Assembly (NCBI GenBank): GCA_000155695.1
Contig: DS990592.1
Coordinates: 1,636,556 to 1,700,555 of the forward strand
Direction: 5' to 3'
Length of the DNA stretch: 64,000 nt
DNA from: Verrucomicrobiia bacterium DG1235
GTDB lineage: Bacteria > Verrucomicrobiota > Verrucomicrobiia > Opitutales > Opitutaceae
Shown: positions 51,714 through 57,816 of the stretch, piece after piece
How the letters are laid out: each line of letters begins with the position of its first letter
Position numbering within the stretch: position 1 is the first letter of the stretch
Notes under the pieces: model-generated
Seen by the model: only the letters and a program-made list of their open reading frames with translations
Database searches by the model: none
What the model was told of the DNA's origin: nothing
Position numbers and translations under genes: made by a program

Positions 51714-51791
51714 TACACCTGCCGACACCTACTCTAATTCTAAATTGTTGCCTATCAACAACCTGTTCGAATCTCGGATCTCCCACCATTT
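51714..51791 (+). repeat. Left 78-bp direct repeat with tRNA-3'-end-like core (att-like)
   Basis: Begins with TACACCTGCCGACACCT and ends with a 22-bp core (51770-51791) that reads AATCTCGGATCTCCCACCA then TTT. The 3' part, preceded by TTCG, looks like the T-loop, T-stem 3' strand, acceptor 3' strand and CCA of a tRNA gene, but no 5' part of a tRNA is present. The right copy is at 53572-53649. By hand count 56 of 78 positions agree and the last 22 are identical. Confidence 0.7.
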
Positions 51792-51962
51792 AAGTCACTC
51801 ACTGATAGTAACTTAAATACCATAAAACGGCAATCCTGTTTTCATTCGAAACAACGAAAACAACACCGATCAACACCTCTTTTTTTCGATGTCCGGATCT
51901 TTTAGATCCTAACTCGCTCGAAGAAGCAAAAGTACTCAAGACCGGATAATAAACAAGAGCTC

Positions 51963-51981
51963 TACACAACCAGGTTGTGTA
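51963..51981. promoter_or_regulatory. Perfect 19-bp palindrome before abiEi (probable autoregulatory operator)
   Basis: TACACAACCAGGTTGTGTA has two perfect 9-bp arms around a central A and ends 35 bp before the preferred ATG at 52017. AbiEi antitoxins are known to repress their own promoter through inverted repeats, and the protein here has the expected N-terminal winged helix. It sits just downstream of a GATAATAA stretch that could be the -10 element. Confidence 0.75.
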
Positions 51982-52016
51982 CTTTGAAGTTTACAAAACG
52001 TTGGCTATCGCAACTA

Positions 52017-52640
52017 ATGGCCGACACTTTGCAAACAACCCCAAAAAAAACAGAACAACTCGCAGAAGAGTTCAAAACCACCTCGACCCTCACAAGCTCG
52101 GAGCTACAGGAACTTGGCTACTCGCGGACCGTCATAAGCAAAGCCATCCAGCTCGGACACATCGAGCGACTATCTAGAGGACTCTACACCTCTAGGCACG
52201 CGCCCATTTCAGAGCACACCTCACTCGTCCAAGTCGCCAAACAAACTCCGAATGCTCGTATTTGCCTCCTCTCAGCTCTAAAATTCCACGAACTCACATC
52301 CCAAAATCCACACGAAGTTTGGATCGCAATAGACCGAAAAGCCAGAAAACCCTCCTACAAGAGCCCCCCCACTCAAGTGGTTCGCTTTTCCGGTCAAGCC
52401 TACGAGACAGGCATCGAAATTCATTCCATCGAGGGAACTGAAGTAGCCATCTACTCAGTCTCAAAGACCGTGGTCGATCTCTTCCGTTATCGAAACACTA
52501 TCGGCATCGACGTAGCAATAGAAGCTCTCAAGGAAGGCTGGAAAGAGCGGCGCTTTACAATCGCCGAGATAAACAAGATCGCCAAAAGCTGCAATGCGGC
52601 AACCACTCTCTCGCCCTACCTAGAAACCGTACTCGGATGA
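52017..52640 (+). CDS. abiEi: AbiEi-type antitoxin (type IV toxin-antitoxin)
   Basis: 207 aa from the ATG at 52017; a TTG at 51975 is possible but would overlap the palindromic operator. The N-terminal winged HTH spans ~10-60 (TSSELQELGYSRTVISKAIQ, then HIERLSRGLYTSR). The C-terminal AbiEi domain includes ICLLSALKFHELTSQNPHEV and VYSVSKTVVDLFRYR-like VAIYSVSKTVVDLF. AbiE systems give phage abortive infection; the antitoxin counters the toxin without stable complex formation and represses the operon. It overlaps abiEii by 4 bp (ATGA). Confidence 0.92.
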   Translation: MADTLQTTPKKTEQLAEEFKTTSTLTSSELQELGYSRTVISKAIQLGHIERLSRGLYTSRHAPISEHTSLVQVAKQTPNARICLLSALKFHELTSQNPHEVWIAIDRKARKPSYKSPPTQVVRFSGQAYETGIEIHSIEGTEVAIYSVSKTVVDLFRYRNTIGIDVAIEALKEGWKERRFTIAEINKIAKSCNAATTLSPYLETVLG

Positions 52641-53503
52641 CCAAAAGCAATCTTGCAGCCTCCGTTCGCCAACGCCTCCTAAACAAGTCTAAAGAGAATA
52701 GGGAGGCCTTCGATTTCGTCCTGTCTCGCTACGCAATTGAGCGATTCCTCTATCGCCTAAGCCTCAGCCAGCACTCGAACACCTTCGTACTGAAAGGAGC
52801 CATTCTATTCTATTTCTGGAACCATGAAATGCACCGCCCGACCCGCGATATCGACTTTCTCGGTTCTGGCACAGCAGACTGCGAAATACTCGAACGAATC
52901 ATAACGGAGATAGTAACCACGCCCGCATGCGAAGACGGACTTACCTTCAACACCTCCACCATCAAGGCGGCGCCAATACGCGAAGAAGCGTTTTATGACG
53001 GCATCAGAGCAAAACTGATCGCAAAGCTCGGTACCGTTAGAATCCCGATGCAAATCGATATAGGATTCGGCGACGCCGTTACACCCGCTCCGGAAACGAA
53101 ACACATTCAAAGTCTGATCACCGAGCTACCCGGACCGGAAGTCAACGCCTACCCGATGTATTCAGTAATAGCGGAAAAGCTCGAAGCCATGGTCGTGCTT
53201 GGAGAGCAAAACAGCCGCATGAAGGATTTCTTCGATATCCATTTTCTCCTTACGAAAGAAGAACTCAACGCCAACTCCATACGAGAAGCCGTAGTCGCTA
53301 CCTTCAAACGCAGACGAACCGACTTGCCGCTAACCACTCCGCCTTCGCTCTTAGTCGAATTCGCCGTTCTCAAACAAATGCAATGGAAAGCGTTTTTAAG
53401 AAGAAACAATCTCGAATCAACCAACGAAGACTTCTCAAAGATACTTGAGGAAATCAGAGAACATTTGCCGATAAACTGGATTTCTTTGGGCAAGGAGAGC
53501 TAA
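52637..53503 (+). CDS. abiEii: AbiEii-type nucleotidyltransferase toxin
   Basis: 288 aa, member of the AbiEii/AbiGii (MenT-like) nucleotidyltransferase fold. Conserved features: K53-G-A in FVLKGAILF, the metal-binding pair D71 and D73 in TRDIDFLG, K181 in AEKLEAMV, and the R194/D197/D200 block RMKDFFDIHFL. All catalytic residues appear intact, so the toxin is probably functional. Related toxins transfer nucleotides to tRNA acceptor ends or GTP-dependent targets. Translationally coupled to the antitoxin. Confidence 0.92.
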   Translation: MTKSNLAASVRQRLLNKSKENREAFDFVLSRYAIERFLYRLSLSQHSNTFVLKGAILFYFWNHEMHRPTRDIDFLGSGTADCEILERIITEIVTTPACEDGLTFNTSTIKAAPIREEAFYDGIRAKLIAKLGTVRIPMQIDIGFGDAVTPAPETKHIQSLITELPGPEVNAYPMYSVIAEKLEAMVVLGEQNSRMKDFFDIHFLLTKEELNANSIREAVVATFKRRRTDLPLTTPPSLLVEFAVLKQMQWKAFLRRNNLESTNEDFSKILEEIREHLPINWISLGKES

Positions 53504-53571
53504 TTTCCGAATGCCAGCCTTGGACACCACTAATACTGGCTTTTCTCACTCATTAACCCAAAAGGTTGAAT

Positions 53572-53649
53572 GACACCTACTGACACCTGTTGTGATTTTA
53601 AGCCGCTGATAATCAACACCTCACCCTAATCTCGGATCTCCCACCATTT
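53572..53649 (+). repeat. Right 78-bp direct repeat with tRNA-3'-end-like core (att-like)
   Basis: Starts GACACCTACTGACACCT; the core at 53628-53649 is identical over 22 bp to the left copy. Both copies contain two ACACCT units spaced 10 bp apart, like arm-type recombinase sites. Immediately followed by a classical terminator, as expected at the natural 3' end of a tRNA gene. The two cores are 1,858 bp apart and enclose the AbiE pair. Confidence 0.7.
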
Positions 53650-53651
53650 TT

Positions 53652-53683
53652 ACCGAAGCAATAAAAGCCTTCGGTTTTTTTTT
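53652..53683 (+). terminator. Rho-independent terminator following tRNA-like core
   Basis: ACCGAAG (53652-53658) pairs with CTTCGGT (53669-53675), followed by a run of nine T (53675-53683). It is only a few bases after the CCA of the right core. Confidence 0.88.
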
Positions 53684-53810
53684 GTGCCCAAACACCAAAA
53701 ACGACTCCAGAGATTCGAAGCGAGGACTCGCCGAGATTGACGAAGCGTAGCGAAGATGAGCAATGCATAGCATTGGGACTGGGTCCTGACGAACAAAGCG
53801 TGCAACCAAC

Positions 53811-53849
53811 CTAGGATCTCCAATCATTTATTCGCGAAACGAATAAATG
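53811..53849. repeat. Degenerate third core copy plus hairpin
   Basis: CTAGGATCTCCAATCATTT (53811-53829) resembles the CTCGGATCTCCCACCATTT core. It runs into a perfect 10-bp stem, CATTTATTCG / CGAATAAATG (53825-53834, 53840-53849), with a 5-nt loop. All three core-like copies are thus followed directly by a hairpin. The hairpin may also stop transcription of the minus-strand operon ending at 53918. Confidence 0.45.
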
Positions 53850-53917
53850 CCACGCCGTATCGAAGAGAAGCCGGGCAAAATCCGTTCCCACGGCAAGTGT
53901 AACCCACAAACCGCAGC

Positions 53918-56386
53918 TTAGCCGCTATCCCTGCTCGGTGGAACCTCGAGAACCATGCGACGATACGAAGTAAGTTTTGGATTCCCGTCATCGCTGACTT
54001 CCAAAATAACGTGGATAGATTTCCCAGCAGACTCCTTCGGGATCTCAAGAGTCGCTATCGAAGAGGTACTTTGACGAAACGCCATATCTCCTTTGAACGA
54101 ACTAGGCTCTTTGTAGACCTGCCACAAAAAACTCAGTTGGTCCCCGTCCGGATCGCTTGAACCGATGGCGCTGAGCTCGATTTCAGAACCTGCGACAACA
54201 GAGGCCTCCAATATTTGACGCGTTGTATCGCCGCTTAGGACTGCTACCGGGAAGTGATTCGCGTCCGCGTAGTCTGGCGTAACACTCCAATCCATACGGG
54301 CTTCAAGGTGATTGAAGATAGACTGTTGCCAGCGTTTGATCGACTCAATGCCTTCTTCGGTGTCGCTGATCATTTCGTATGGATCGTAAATCGTTTCGTC
54401 CACCCCGCTCCGGATCACTATATCCATAGTACGGATACCAGGCTTCTTGTCCCAAGAGAAGCGACCACCCCACCCCCCTTGATCGATCTCGTTCGGATCG
54501 TTCAAACCTCGAGAAACCAAATGCATAAACGCGGGCGAATCTCCTTCTGTCGCCCAGCGGCGGTCCCGGTACTTCGGGCCCAAGGGGCCGTGACTCTGCA
54601 CGTGCTCCGCCACCCATTCGTCGCTAGGAGCCCAGCCATAAATGGATTTTGTGCGGATATAGATCAGCTCAGGAAAGGTCTTCGCCATCCACGCTCCTGT
54701 GTCGCATTGACCTAGGATGTCGTAGATGCGGATCTTGTGGATGAATCGCGCGAATTCCTCGGGCGAACGCGTGTGGTGAACCTTCCAGATCGCTTGGGCA
54801 ATCGTATTGGTTCCACCCCAAGCGTTGATCCAAACCGGTCGAGGATCGTCCTTGTCCACCACTGAAATGATCAGCTCCGAACCCTCGGAATCCATACCTT
54901 CCCCTACCCCCTTGAGCAAGGCCTCTTTTTGTCCGGTTGCGAGAATTGACCGCAAGGTGTCCGCGCTTGGATACCCATCGGCGTGCGTCCTCAGATTCGG
55001 AAGGCACTCCTCGTAGGCCTCAACGATGGAAAGCGAAAGGTCCTTCGGACGAAAGTAGTCATCCAACCAAGCGTATCCGATTATAAAGCCTTCAAGCTCG
55101 AACTCGTTCGCCGCCACCAGCAGATGCACCATCGACTGCTCGTCGTCTGGATCCTCTCCACCGATATCGGTGGTCACAACCAAACGCTGCTTCTTCGCTT
55201 GTAGGTGCACATCTAATAGTTCTGTACCTGAAGTGTCGATACGCATTCCTTTTTTCCAATAGCGAGATTCGCTGAATTCGATGCTCCCTACCTCGTCTGA
55301 TATCGGAAGAACGAAGTTGCCGGCCGCGTCGGTACGCGTCAGTCGATCCGAATCCGACCAACTCACTTCGACCCCAGCAACCGGCAGAAGCGTCGCGCTG
55401 TCGCGAACCATGCCACGAACCTCTCCAGCACGGATGCTCGAAAAAGGTGCCGCCAAGCGGTCCTCGATGAAACGGCTGATCTCTTTGTGCCCTGCCTTGT
55501 CATGAAATCCAAATACCGCTACCGAGTCTGTTCCCGTAAGAGAGCGATTATCGTTAGGCCAAGCGCCAACCCGACCGTAGCTGACCACGACCATGTTCTC
55601 CTTTTGCACGTATGACTCGCCGCCGATGCCCTCCTGCAAGTTCTTCGCCCCTATGTAAAAAATCTGATCGTCCCTGGGGTCCGTATCCAGAAAATAGATA
55701 AACGGCGAAAAGCATTCCGTAAGGCTGCACAATTGTCCGTTTTCAGTACCGTCCTTGAAGTACCATTTGTCTACGTCCGGGCCTTCCATCTCTCCCCCGA
55801 TGGGTCCTTCGAACAGGAAGGCATAGGTATCGTCCGCCCTTATTACCTCGATCGCGATATGGCTCGGAAAGAAATGATATTCGAGCTCATAGGTTTCGTT
55901 GGCGGATCTCATCCGCAAATGCGCCCCCTGCAGCACGCCCTGGACATCGAACGCGAGGTCCTCCCCATTGGCGTCAACCCAACGTGTCGAAGAACCGCTC
56001 GACCGCTGAGGATGGTCGAAGTTGCCGTTTCCAAAGTTCGGCCAACCACGATACTCGTGCTTGCCCGTTCCGCGCGGCGAAAGGTTATAGCCCTTATCCG
56101 CATCGTTTCCGATCCAGTCGTTGCCCACATGATCGAAGGCGCTACTAAAACCGGTCTTGCCATCCGTCTCGCCCGTTTCGAAGTACCAGGTCCCATTCCC
56201 GGCCGCGACCTTCCAACACCAATTGTCGAAATGCATGACGCGAGTTACAACAACCTCATCGGGGAAAGGCGAATACGGCGAACCAGAAACAGGTTCTTCC
56301 GCGTGAGAAGGGAATGTTATTTGAGCAAACGCGAGACAGACAATGGCTCGAATCGCACCAAGTATCATAGTCAATTTTCTATTCAT
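53918..56386 (-). CDS. Sde182/DUF1593-type protein with N-terminal lyase-associated beta-sandwich
   Basis: 822 aa with a leader (AIRAIVCLAFAQITFPSHA). Residues ~30-290 form a beta-sandwich also found inside the PL10 protein of the same operon. Residues ~315-390 form a carboxypeptidase-regulatory-like beta domain (GEVRGMVRDSATLLPVAGVE). Residues ~400-690 are the Sde182 nucleoside-hydrolase-like domain with TTDIGGEDPDDEQSMVHLL and VGEGMDSEGSELI. The C-terminus is Ig/PKD-like ([18 protein letters not shown]). Sde182 was described as a cellulose-binding protein; the fold carries a divergent calcium motif and no proven activity. Last gene of the operon, 14 bp after its paralogue. The four-domain layout is unusual. 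Confidence 0.85.
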   Translation of the reverse strand: MNRKLTMILGAIRAIVCLAFAQITFPSHAEEPVSGSPYSPFPDEVVVTRVMHFDNWCWKVAAGNGTWYFETGETDGKTGFSSAFDHVGNDWIGNDADKGYNLSPRGTGKHEYRGWPNFGNGNFDHPQRSSGSSTRWVDANGEDLAFDVQGVLQGAHLRMRSANETYELEYHFFPSHIAIEVIRADDTYAFLFEGPIGGEMEGPDVDKWYFKDGTENGQLCSLTECFSPFIYFLDTDPRDDQIFYIGAKNLQEGIGGESYVQKENMVVVSYGRVGAWPNDNRSLTGTDSVAVFGFHDKAGHKEISRFIEDRLAAPFSSIRAGEVRGMVRDSATLLPVAGVEVSWSDSDRLTRTDAAGNFVLPISDEVGSIEFSESRYWKKGMRIDTSGTELLDVHLQAKKQRLVVTTDIGGEDPDDEQSMVHLLVAANEFELEGFIIGYAWLDDYFRPKDLSLSIVEAYEECLPNLRTHADGYPSADTLRSILATGQKEALLKGVGEGMDSEGSELIISVVDKDDPRPVWINAWGGTNTIAQAIWKVHHTRSPEEFARFIHKIRIYDILGQCDTGAWMAKTFPELIYIRTKSIYGWAPSDEWVAEHVQSHGPLGPKYRDRRWATEGDSPAFMHLVSRGLNDPNEIDQGGWGGRFSWDKKPGIRTMDIVIRSGVDETIYDPYEMISDTEEGIESIKRWQQSIFNHLEARMDWSVTPDYADANHFPVAVLSGDTTRQILEASVVAGSEIELSAIGSSDPDGDQLSFLWQVYKEPSSFKGDMAFRQSTSSIATLEIPKESAGKSIHVILEVSDDGNPKLTSYRRMVLEVPPSRDSG

Positions 56387-56400
56387 GCTACAAGTATCGG

Positions 56401-57816
56401 CTATTCGGTTACATCTACGATCACGCGTTGATAGCGAGTGAGCGCTGGTGAGCCTTTATCGGTTACGGCGACAATGATATGCAGGTCGCCGGTTCGAAGA
56501 ACGCGTTGGGTGGGAACTTCGAGCAACGCTTCGGCCTGGTCTCGATTGCGGATCACAACTGGGTCCGCCGTTCTGGCGCTCGATGCGGTGAAAGCGCCTG
56601 CTTCCAAGTATGCGAACCAATGATACGTAAGTTCGTCACCATCCGGATCGCTGCTACCTGCTGCGCTCAGCTTAACCTCATCTCCAACCTTCGCCACAAG
56701 CCGATTCGGATGAGCCAGCTTCACGACTGGAGGGTGGTTCGCCTCTTCGTAGGACTTAATGGTCCAATCCATACGAGCGACAAAATCGTTTTGGTAGGCC
56801 TCGCGCCAACGCCAGATGGTCGCGTGGTTGCTCGTATGCCAGTTTCCATCGTATCCTAGCACCTCGTCCCGCGCATCGCTCCAAAACGGACGTGTTTCCG
56901 GCTGAATGAACTGTTTCTCCCAACGGGGTGTATAAAGTTCGTAGCGACCGCCCCAACTGCCCCAATTCGGTCGATCCGGATTACTGAGCCCGTTGTCGAT
57001 CAAAATCATGAAGCTCGGTGAATCACCCTCCATTAAGTAGTCCATATGCGGATACTCGGCTCCGAGCGGCCCCTTGCTTCGAATATGCTCATCCAGCCAG
57101 GGATTGTCGACGATCTCAAAATTTGCCCCTGTGAATCGCGCATGAAACTTATCACCGCTGATTCCGCTCCAAGTCGCAAAGTGGTACGCCCCGCCCGCAT
57201 GCATGCCAGGACTCGCGATGTAGAAAAGATTGGGAAAGGTCTCGCGTAGCCACGGACCGCTATTGTCCTGATCCGATATCGTGTAGACGTGCAGTTTCGC
57301 GACAAAGGCCTCGAGCTCCCAATCGGTACGGTTCTGCTTCACCTTCCAAAGCGCTTGCGCCAATACGTTCGGCCCTCCCCAGACCGTCACCCAAACCGGA
57401 CGCGGATCGTCTCGGTCAACCACTTCGATCAACAGCTCCGAGCCCGACGAATCCATCCCCTCGCCCACCGCGTTCATGCCGTAGTCAGGCCGCCCTTCGC
57501 GGACGAGCGACAGGAGATGCTCCGCAGTCGGATAGCCCGTTTCGTGCTTCTCCAAATTGTCCCGCACCTTTCCATACGCTTCGAGAATCTCCCGTAGGCG
57601 CCAGGCCGCTGTCTCGTCCTGCTGATGTATTGAAGTCGTGGCGACAAGTCCCTCTACATCCCACTGGTTCGAATACGTGAGAAAACGAACCAATGACATC
57701 GCATCGTCAGGCTCGTTTTCGATATCGGTCAACACGAACACGCGAGGTTTTTGGTCAGCCTGTATCGAACAGATAGGAACTAGGAAGGCGAAAAGAAGTA
57801 GCGTTAAGATTTTCAT
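56401..57816 (-). CDS. Sde182/DUF1593-type nucleoside-hydrolase-like protein
   Basis: 471 aa, leader [19 protein letters not shown]. The metal-site-like motif is [18 protein letters not shown] (D31, D37-D38), where the first Asp of canonical DTDxxxDD is absent. Further family blocks: [46 protein letters not shown] and [12 protein letters not shown]. The C-terminal ~100 residues form the Sde182 Ig-like domain ([17 protein letters not shown]). Exported. Sits 61 bp after the PL10 gene. Closest in the window to the protein at 61991-63412. Confidence 0.88.

Follow-up and report, generated by a model that had tools for sequence, protein, structure and literature searches.

The marine Pelagicoccus genome of Verrucomicrobiia bacterium DG1235 (5,775,745 bases in six contigs; G000 in the comparisons below) contains a 1.86-kb islet in which the two genes of an AbiE toxin-antitoxin system, abiEi and abiEii, are flanked on either side by a copy of the tRNA-Val(GAC) 3' end. 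The stretch of DNA analysed here, from now on referred to as the window, comprises 64,000 nucleotides (contig DS990592.1; C6:1636556-1700555). The islet is very probably a decayed, integrase-less element, similar to a cis-mobilisable element (CIME), which has accreted in tandem at tRNA-Val(GAC) and carries AbiE.

Direct repeats and the tRNA-Val(GAC) gene

The islet is bounded by a direct repeat of 77 nt (51715–51791 and 53573–53649), 1858 bp apart from start to start and 73% identical overall. The final 22 nt (AATCTCGGATCTCCCACCATTT) are identical in both copies and form the left core (core 2, 51770–51791) and the right core (core 3, 53628–53649), both on the + strand and identical to the tRNA-Val(GAC) 3' end with its CCA, while paired ACACCT units are found further upstream in each copy. 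An initial annotation, made from the letters of this stretch, had described a core repeated exactly 1,858 bp apart with similarity extending upstream, paired ACACCT units included, and both observations are confirmed. When searching the window for a 19-nt core (CTCGGATCTCCCACCATTT) with up to three mismatches, three matches were found where 0.01 were expected, the third one (53811–53829) with three mismatches. In the whole genome a 17-nt core (TCTCGGATCTCCCACCA), allowing two mismatches, is present three times, always exact and on the + strand, and the reversed control pattern gives no match.

An intact tRNA-Val(GAC) gene on the same strand (C6:1595506–1595582) has the third genome copy of the 17-nt core as its 3' end; the gene lies 41 kb before the window and 92.7 kb upstream of the left core, and for core 2 the identity with this gene extends to 27 nt. 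The repeats are not due to chance and the tRNA 3' end is the source of the core, the arrangement being that of site-specific integration into a tRNA 3' end, in which direct repeats reproduce the end of an intact, co-oriented tRNA gene. The initial annotation had suggested a search for such a tRNA and had also stated that there is no intact tRNA, which is true of the window (no tRNA by ARAGORN and no Rfam family at gathering score) but not of the genome. A common repeat as the origin of the 22-mer is ruled out, the core having only three copies in the genome of which one ends tRNA-Val.

The comparison was extended to other Pelagicoccus genomes, among them Pelagicoccus mobilis KCTC 13126 (G110) and Pelagicoccus sp. 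SDUM812002 (G144), and to the Opitutaceae metagenome-assembled genome (MAG) OX638348.1. The distal core matches the host's own tRNA variant in G000, G144, G150 and the MAG, with the variant TCGAGCCTCGG in both G144 copies and ATCTGCCATC in the MAG. As a separate observation, the anticodon stem of tRNA-Val(GAC) reads CTTGC/GCAAG in G000 and CTACC/GGTAG in the other seven Pelagicoccus genomes, the changes being compensated, and the MAG has the same form as G000.

Arms beside the cores

A scan for ACACCT-N4-ACACCT, with at most one mismatch and without any condition on position, covered 990,453 bases taken from the tRNA-Val regions of eight Pelagicoccus genomes and from two parts of the MAG. All ten matches are on the tRNA strand; six are situated exactly 58 bp before an intact core, one at equal distance before a degenerate core (G144) and the remaining three 90–91 bp after a core. 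The seven sites before a core, below called right arms, occur in five genomes, one of them of another genus, beside different cargo, and a right arm together with a core is present in four of the eight Pelagicoccus genomes (two in G000, and in G144, G110 and G150). In all seven right arms both ACACCT hexamers are unchanged while the spacer has drifted, though the motif itself served to locate the MAG site and to compile the list of the remaining ones. A pattern search of genome contigs gave six matches, three of which were used; the other three, in other phyla, were regarded as chance after inspection of their sequences and dropped.

The right arm of the islet (attR-type, 53573–53627, + strand) opens with ACACCTACTGACACCT, its ACACCT pair (53573–53588) being one of those 58 bp before a core start (CTCGG), and the arm units can be described as an ACACC(T) pair with a 10-bp period. 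A corresponding attR-type arm (51715–51769, + strand; pair 51715–51730, 58 bp before the core start) precedes core 2 and is assigned to the upstream neighbour element. Over 58 bp the ungapped identity between right arms is 52–86%, while the 20 bp outside the pair are 10–45% identical, or 65% for the two G144 copies. Judged from these alignments, the similarity upstream of the core is a predicted attachment-site arm ending at the ACACCT pair. The islet's right arm is closest to that of the MAG (74% over 58 bp) and the arm before core 2 to the two right arms of G144 (72–76%), while the two right arms of the window are 64% identical to each other. Since each of them is closer to another genome, they appear to be the ends of two different elements, and core 2 and core 3 as the ends of a recent local duplication are ruled out on the same grounds.

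Core 2 is followed by an attL-type left arm of ~125 bp (51792–51917, + strand), and the islet thus has two ends. This arm contains an imperfect hairpin (51792–51814), the pair ACACCGATCAACACCT (51863–51878) 90 bp after the core start, and the palindrome GGATCTTTTAGATCC (51895–51909) followed by AACTCGC. Including the core, core 2 and left arm are 87% identical over 142 bp to the second core region of G144, and 81–82% over 112–114 bp to the intact tRNA 3' end and flank of this genome.

Flanking DNA and unoccupied sites

In G019, G089 and G127 the tRNA is directly followed by a terminator (ACCGAAGG..CCTTCGGT or CCTTCGGA) and then by T-rich DNA. On the outer side of the islet, after core 3, a native-type tRNA-Val 3' flank is found (53650–53689, + strand) with the terminator ACCGAAGC..GCCTTCGGT-T run-GTGCCC, so that the tRNA-style terminator placed there by the initial annotation is present and resembles the native tRNA-Val flank of the relatives. 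The 60 bp after each core were scored against six reference flanks, of which G019, G127, G089 and G150 supplied one each immediately behind an intact tRNA and G110 and G150 one each behind a right-arm core, using 200 shuffles each. The flank after core 3 gave z scores of 5.2 to 9.8 and therefore core 3 has an outer flank of native type, as integration predicts, corresponding to the tRNA flank of an unoccupied site. The DNA behind core 2 scored -1.2 to 0.3, that behind the intact tRNA -0.9 to 0.3 and that behind the degenerate fourth core 0.1 to 1.5; on these scores neither core 2 nor the tRNA is followed by native flank.

Short duplications of the flank occur in relatives; G089 has a 101-bp tandem copy of core and flank without cargo, and in G150 copies of 203–204 bp are 95% identical. 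Since a second core follows 101 bp on in G089 and 84.8 kb on in G127, where it has a native-like flank, only G019 of the three is a plain single-core site.

The abiE operon

The gene abiEi (52017–52640, + strand) encodes the antitoxin (PF17194, 2.1e-8; PF13338, 9.2e-6; PADLOC AbiEi, 2e-74) and abiEii (52637–53503, + strand) a nucleotidyltransferase toxin of 288 aa (PF08843, 1.1e-48; PADLOC AbiEii, 6e-99), which is related to the solved AbiGII chain 9hlo_B (9e-26). The two genes overlap by 4 bp and the frame of abiEii is open, without stops. For abiEi the ATG at 52017 is preferred as start; the longest reading frame begins with TTG at 51975, inside a near-perfect palindrome (TACACAACCAGGTTGTGTA, 51963–51981, + strand) upstream of the gene, a candidate operator for autorepression of the kind known from AbiE systems. 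Apart from overlapping reading frames on the minus strand, these are the only reading frames of at least 80 aa in the islet, and Pfam and PADLOC thus agree with the initial annotation that nothing but AbiEi and AbiEii lies between the repeats. With an AbiEi antitoxin and an adjacent AbiEii nucleotidyltransferase the pair has the composition of a type IV toxin-antitoxin system, and by analogy it probably works as an ordinary abortive-infection pair of this type, defending the host and penalising loss of the islet.

The G+C content of the operon is 49.3%, compared with 53.8–54.6% around it. Homologues of AbiEii (E 1e-10) are present in 40 of 252 genomes of the family and in two of the eight Pelagicoccus genomes, the second being a 45% partial match on another contig. 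The nearest ones are those of G078 (80%), of G232, which by its position is the MAG (two pieces of 82% and 67%), and of G057 (two pieces of 71% and 72%). At the DNA level G078 and G232 match the islet from ~30 bp before the abiEi ATG through the abiEii stop and G057 from the same point to ~90 bp before the abiEii stop, and no arms were found beside these three homologues except for one opposite-strand match with two mismatches in the G057 locus. Since the homologues in other genera match the operon and not the arms, AbiE seems, as far as these alignments tell, to be cargo that the element has acquired, and AbiE as a part of the arm sequence is ruled out. Among phage records 15 have AbiEii matches, every one below 60% identity, and a search of plasmids gave only two matches of 4%.

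Search for a recombinase

The islet contains no match to PF00589 (tyrosine recombinases) or PF00239 (serine recombinases), in agreement with the absence of an integrase noted initially. In the whole genome 12 PF00589 matches were found, none of them between the tRNA and core 3, the nearest being XerD ~111 kb beyond core 3. Five of the 12 were classified by NCBIfam as one XerD, one XerC-like protein below cut-off and three integron integrases. The latter are separate genes over the TIGR02249 cut-off (L044, L045 and L046; C6:1106758, 4882337 and 4207379), an observation of its own. Two weak arm-pair matches with two mismatches lie near PF00589 matches (L047 and L049), where no tRNA was found. 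The tRNA-Val segments of G144, G110 and G127 are likewise without PF00589 matches. A second test, with a profile built from ten recombinases of this genome and run in six frames against the segments of G000, G144, G110, G150 and G127, gave nothing better than E 0.8, while the G029 control was found (4.1e-21). A serine recombinase was rejected as a candidate, PF00239 having no match in G000, G144 and G127 and a single match in G150 and in G110, in both cases on another contig.

A possible trace of an integrase was seen in the MAG, where tRNA-Val is followed by a left-arm-like stretch (GACACCTTTGCTAACCT), by a reading frame that breaks off and by further genes. By resemblance the broken frame would be a decayed N-terminal piece of an integrase-like protein and the genes after it IS3-like. 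The integrase-like label is partly based on G048, in which a related and better preserved piece is located beside tRNA-Thr; the 24-aa integrase peptide was found in two of the 252 family genomes, the MAG and G048 (E 0.009).

The tRNA-Val region in related genomes

To the left of the tRNA (-7.5 to -1.8 kb) six genes have counterparts at similar distance in four to seven of the seven other Pelagicoccus regions, the gene next to the tRNA presumably being recN-like. To the right, when comparing gene order over 75–200 kb per genome, no run of genes keeps its position before +140.6 kb, which corresponds to +14.7 kb in G089 and +33.8 kb in G063. The exceptions are five genes of a corrinoid methyltransferase-type cluster, which recur in the G110 segment (57–83% identity) but at a different distance, and two genes at +103.0 and +113.8 kb shared with G144. 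One gene, presumably upp-like, follows the tRNA at 0.2 kb in G019, and its G150 counterpart (84% identity) lies past the island at +27.8 kb.

The initial annotation had proposed a search for other cargo at the same repeats, and such cargo is present. In front of the right arm an efflux operon of the RND type is found in G144 (7.6 kb), a segment of 47.6 kb in G110, and in G150 a 22.6-kb cluster of chaperone and stress type encoding a chaperonin, DnaJ, an M50 protease, a PEP-utilising enzyme, a desaturase and SufBD among other proteins, 21 of its 22 predicted genes having been scanned; this island (C6:205001–240000) is reminiscent of transmissible stress-tolerance islands. In the MAG the right arm and core (G151 C1, near 4,039 kb) are 3.5 Mb from tRNA-Val by coordinate, or ~1.3 Mb downstream if the chromosome is circular, and are preceded by a fragment of the AbiEii family (PF08843, 2.3e-11) with no significant similarity to the toxin of the window (E 0.12). 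The tRNA-Val array of G144 (L084:9223–9360; C71) also continues with a left-arm unit that has no genes, an incomplete unit at 797.3 kb (C71:797300), and at 811.65 kb (C71:811654) with a right arm, a degenerate core and a left-arm hairpin.

Positions 1–51714 of the window form the right-hand portion of the 92.7-kb segment that separates core 2 from the intact tRNA-Val, and the 18 of its 68 predicted genes that were scanned with Pfam are metabolic, regulatory or unassigned. Beyond the native-type flank a degenerate fourth core (53811–53829) and the bases following it occupy 53811–53884 (+ strand), a stretch of 74 bp with 88% identity to the 3' end and flank of the tRNA-Val gene in Pelagicoccus sp. 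SDUM812002. A dispersed repeat as the explanation of the sequence after this core was rejected, one other match being found in the eight Pelagicoccus regions. Further to the right (53918–57816) two adjacent nucleoside-hydrolase-like proteins of the Sde182 type (PF07632) are encoded.

Interpretation and alternative explanations

We propose that a small element once inserted into the 3' end of tRNA-Val(GAC) by means of a tyrosine recombinase, which would since have been lost through decay or may never have been carried. The cores would be duplicates of the tRNA 3' end that arose at integration, and the paired ACACC(T) units with their 10-bp period and fixed distances would be the arm sites of the recombinase. 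The islet has kept its ends intact, in the order core and left arm, abiEi-abiEii, right arm and core. The array as a whole, running from the tRNA through a 125-bp gene-less unit, a ~92-kb variable segment, the AbiE islet and the native-type flank to the degenerate core, may have been built by successive integrations into attachment sites, and the islet would be expected to move only if a matching recombinase arrives, either in trans or in cis with a new neighbour. The tandem accretion at a tRNA site suggested initially is supported by the tRNA-derived cores, by junctions that fall at the cores and by other cargo before like right arms, and with a 22-mer that is derived from a tRNA the earlier interpretation was largely right.

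A number of points weigh against this proposal. The left boundary of the 92.7-kb segment was not found, the efflux unit of G144 is without the left-arm pair and the second core of G127 without a right arm, and the distal cores of G110 and G127 carry A where the host tRNA has G, two positions ahead of CTCGG. Mononucleotide shuffles predict ~5 arm-pair matches with at most one mismatch in 990 kb, so that the evidence lies in the position of the motif and not in the count. The MAG site was found with a pattern that requires the motif, with 26 spacings allowed; the Pelagicoccus sites were recovered by similarity as well, without the motif. After the gene-less unit beside the tRNA the z scores are 1.7 to 8.9, indicating a second copy of the native-type flank which complicates the history of the array; the flank itself was thus duplicated, as in G089 and G150. 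G019 has a single core with a flank of the right-core type directly after the tRNA, but no genome with the same locus minus AbiE was found and the islet's own empty site was not seen. Around the 12 PF00589 matches (~1.5 kb flank each) no helper recombinase with ACACCT arms was detected. Finally, according to PMC7563491 the most decayed units of Streptococcus salivarius are those farthest from the target gene, while here the gene-less unit is nearest to the tRNA.

Instead of a decayed leftover, the islet could be a minimal cassette that to this day is mobilised in trans, the recombinase being encoded elsewhere. Both its ends are complete, its core is identical to the host tRNA, the hexamers are unchanged in right arms whose spacers have drifted, and arm-bearing segments are found in four Pelagicoccus genomes of which none has a detectable tyrosine recombinase. 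Such conservation may however predate integration, and with no matching-arm helper among the 12 PF00589 matches, five of them classified by NCBIfam, we regard present-day movement as unlikely; the mobilisation in trans considered in the initial annotation is unproven, no helper having been found. A wider form of this idea, to which we give just as little credence, is that Pelagicoccus and its relatives hold a family of recombinase-less tRNA-Val elements with conserved arms, from ~125-bp gene-less units through the 1.9-kb AbiE cassette to segments of tens of kb, all moved in trans, possibly by a recombinase outside the two standard families.

If the 3' end of the tRNA and its flank had been duplicated locally in tandem, with a chance insertion of AbiE between the copies, this would agree with the short duplications in G089 and G150 and with the second, armless core of G127. 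The left arm is however not tRNA flank, as seen from the scores after core 2, and in other species the arms are again found at fixed spacing, beside unrelated cargo; duplication is thus largely refuted for the islet, for which we consider it very improbable, and likely for the short flank duplications. Prophages commonly use tRNA 3' ends as integration sites and AbiE is an anti-phage type of cargo, both of which would suit a phage satellite or prophage remnant rather than the remnant of a conjugative or generic island. As the islet has no phage gene, the exact right-arm-plus-core pattern has no match in viral contigs and the 18 of 68 genes scanned in the neighbouring segment are not phage genes, this origin is the least credible of all. 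The decayed, tandemly accreted element remains the reading that we prefer.

Comparison with known elements

According to PMC5704250, a CIME is an element without integration and transfer genes that has kept attL and attR and arises through integration, decay and a new tandem integration, and PMC7563491 describes, in streptococci, classical CIMEs of 1.2–13 kb with cargo as well as gene-less microCIMEs of 130–220 bp. Measured against these descriptions, the 1.86-kb islet and the short units of 101–204 bp found here match the anatomy of CIMEs and microCIMEs; attL-type and attR-type sites flank the islet, abiEi and abiEii fill it and leave neither an integrase or recombination gene nor a conjugation or mobilisation module inside, and the accretion is in tandem at the 3' end of a target gene. 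The differences lie in the phylum, in the order of decay relative to the target gene, in the 10-bp-period ACACCT arms at fixed spacing, and in that no integrative and conjugative (ICE) or integrative and mobilisable (IME) relative was found at the tRNA-Val site, where no search was made for a relaxase, coupling protein or secretion system. In its anatomy the islet is a CIME, a known kind of element, and its descent from an ICE or IME would be hypothetical.

Tycheposons, according to PMC10872708, are anchored at tRNA genes and carry variable cargo over 4–200 kb together with a tyrosine recombinase. They share with the present case the tRNA anchoring and a size range that includes the neighbouring segments, and differ in the tyrosine recombinase, which was not found here. 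Integrase-less cassette arrays and other hitchers are treated in general terms in PMC11389934. Closer by, an island in another genus of the same family (G029, C62:3368–27732) has a second copy of the tRNA-Val core 24.4 kb from the tRNA but carries its own integrase at the right end and has no ACACCT pair near either core, and is an independent user of the same tRNA-Val site.

The AbiE pair itself is an ordinary member of the type IV AbiEi/AbiEii systems, with both proteins over the curated Pfam cut-offs, overlapping neighbouring genes and an upstream palindrome, and since the literature already joins AbiE with integrative elements, tRNA and attL, its presence on such an element is not new. In the literature on Pelagicoccus and Verrucomicrobia no such elements were met by title or abstract, most subscription papers lying outside the search. 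The locus provides a multi-species example from the Verrucomicrobiota of a tRNA hotspot collecting recombinase-less elements, and its predicted arm motif (ACACCT-N4-ACACCT, 58 bp before and ~90 bp after a core) is a handle for seeking the missing recombinase. With two arms and one toxin-antitoxin operon the islet is near the smallest conceivable unit that bears cargo; compared with the systems above it is a well-delimited case of a known kind of element, of which the phylum and the arm geometry look new in the literature searched.

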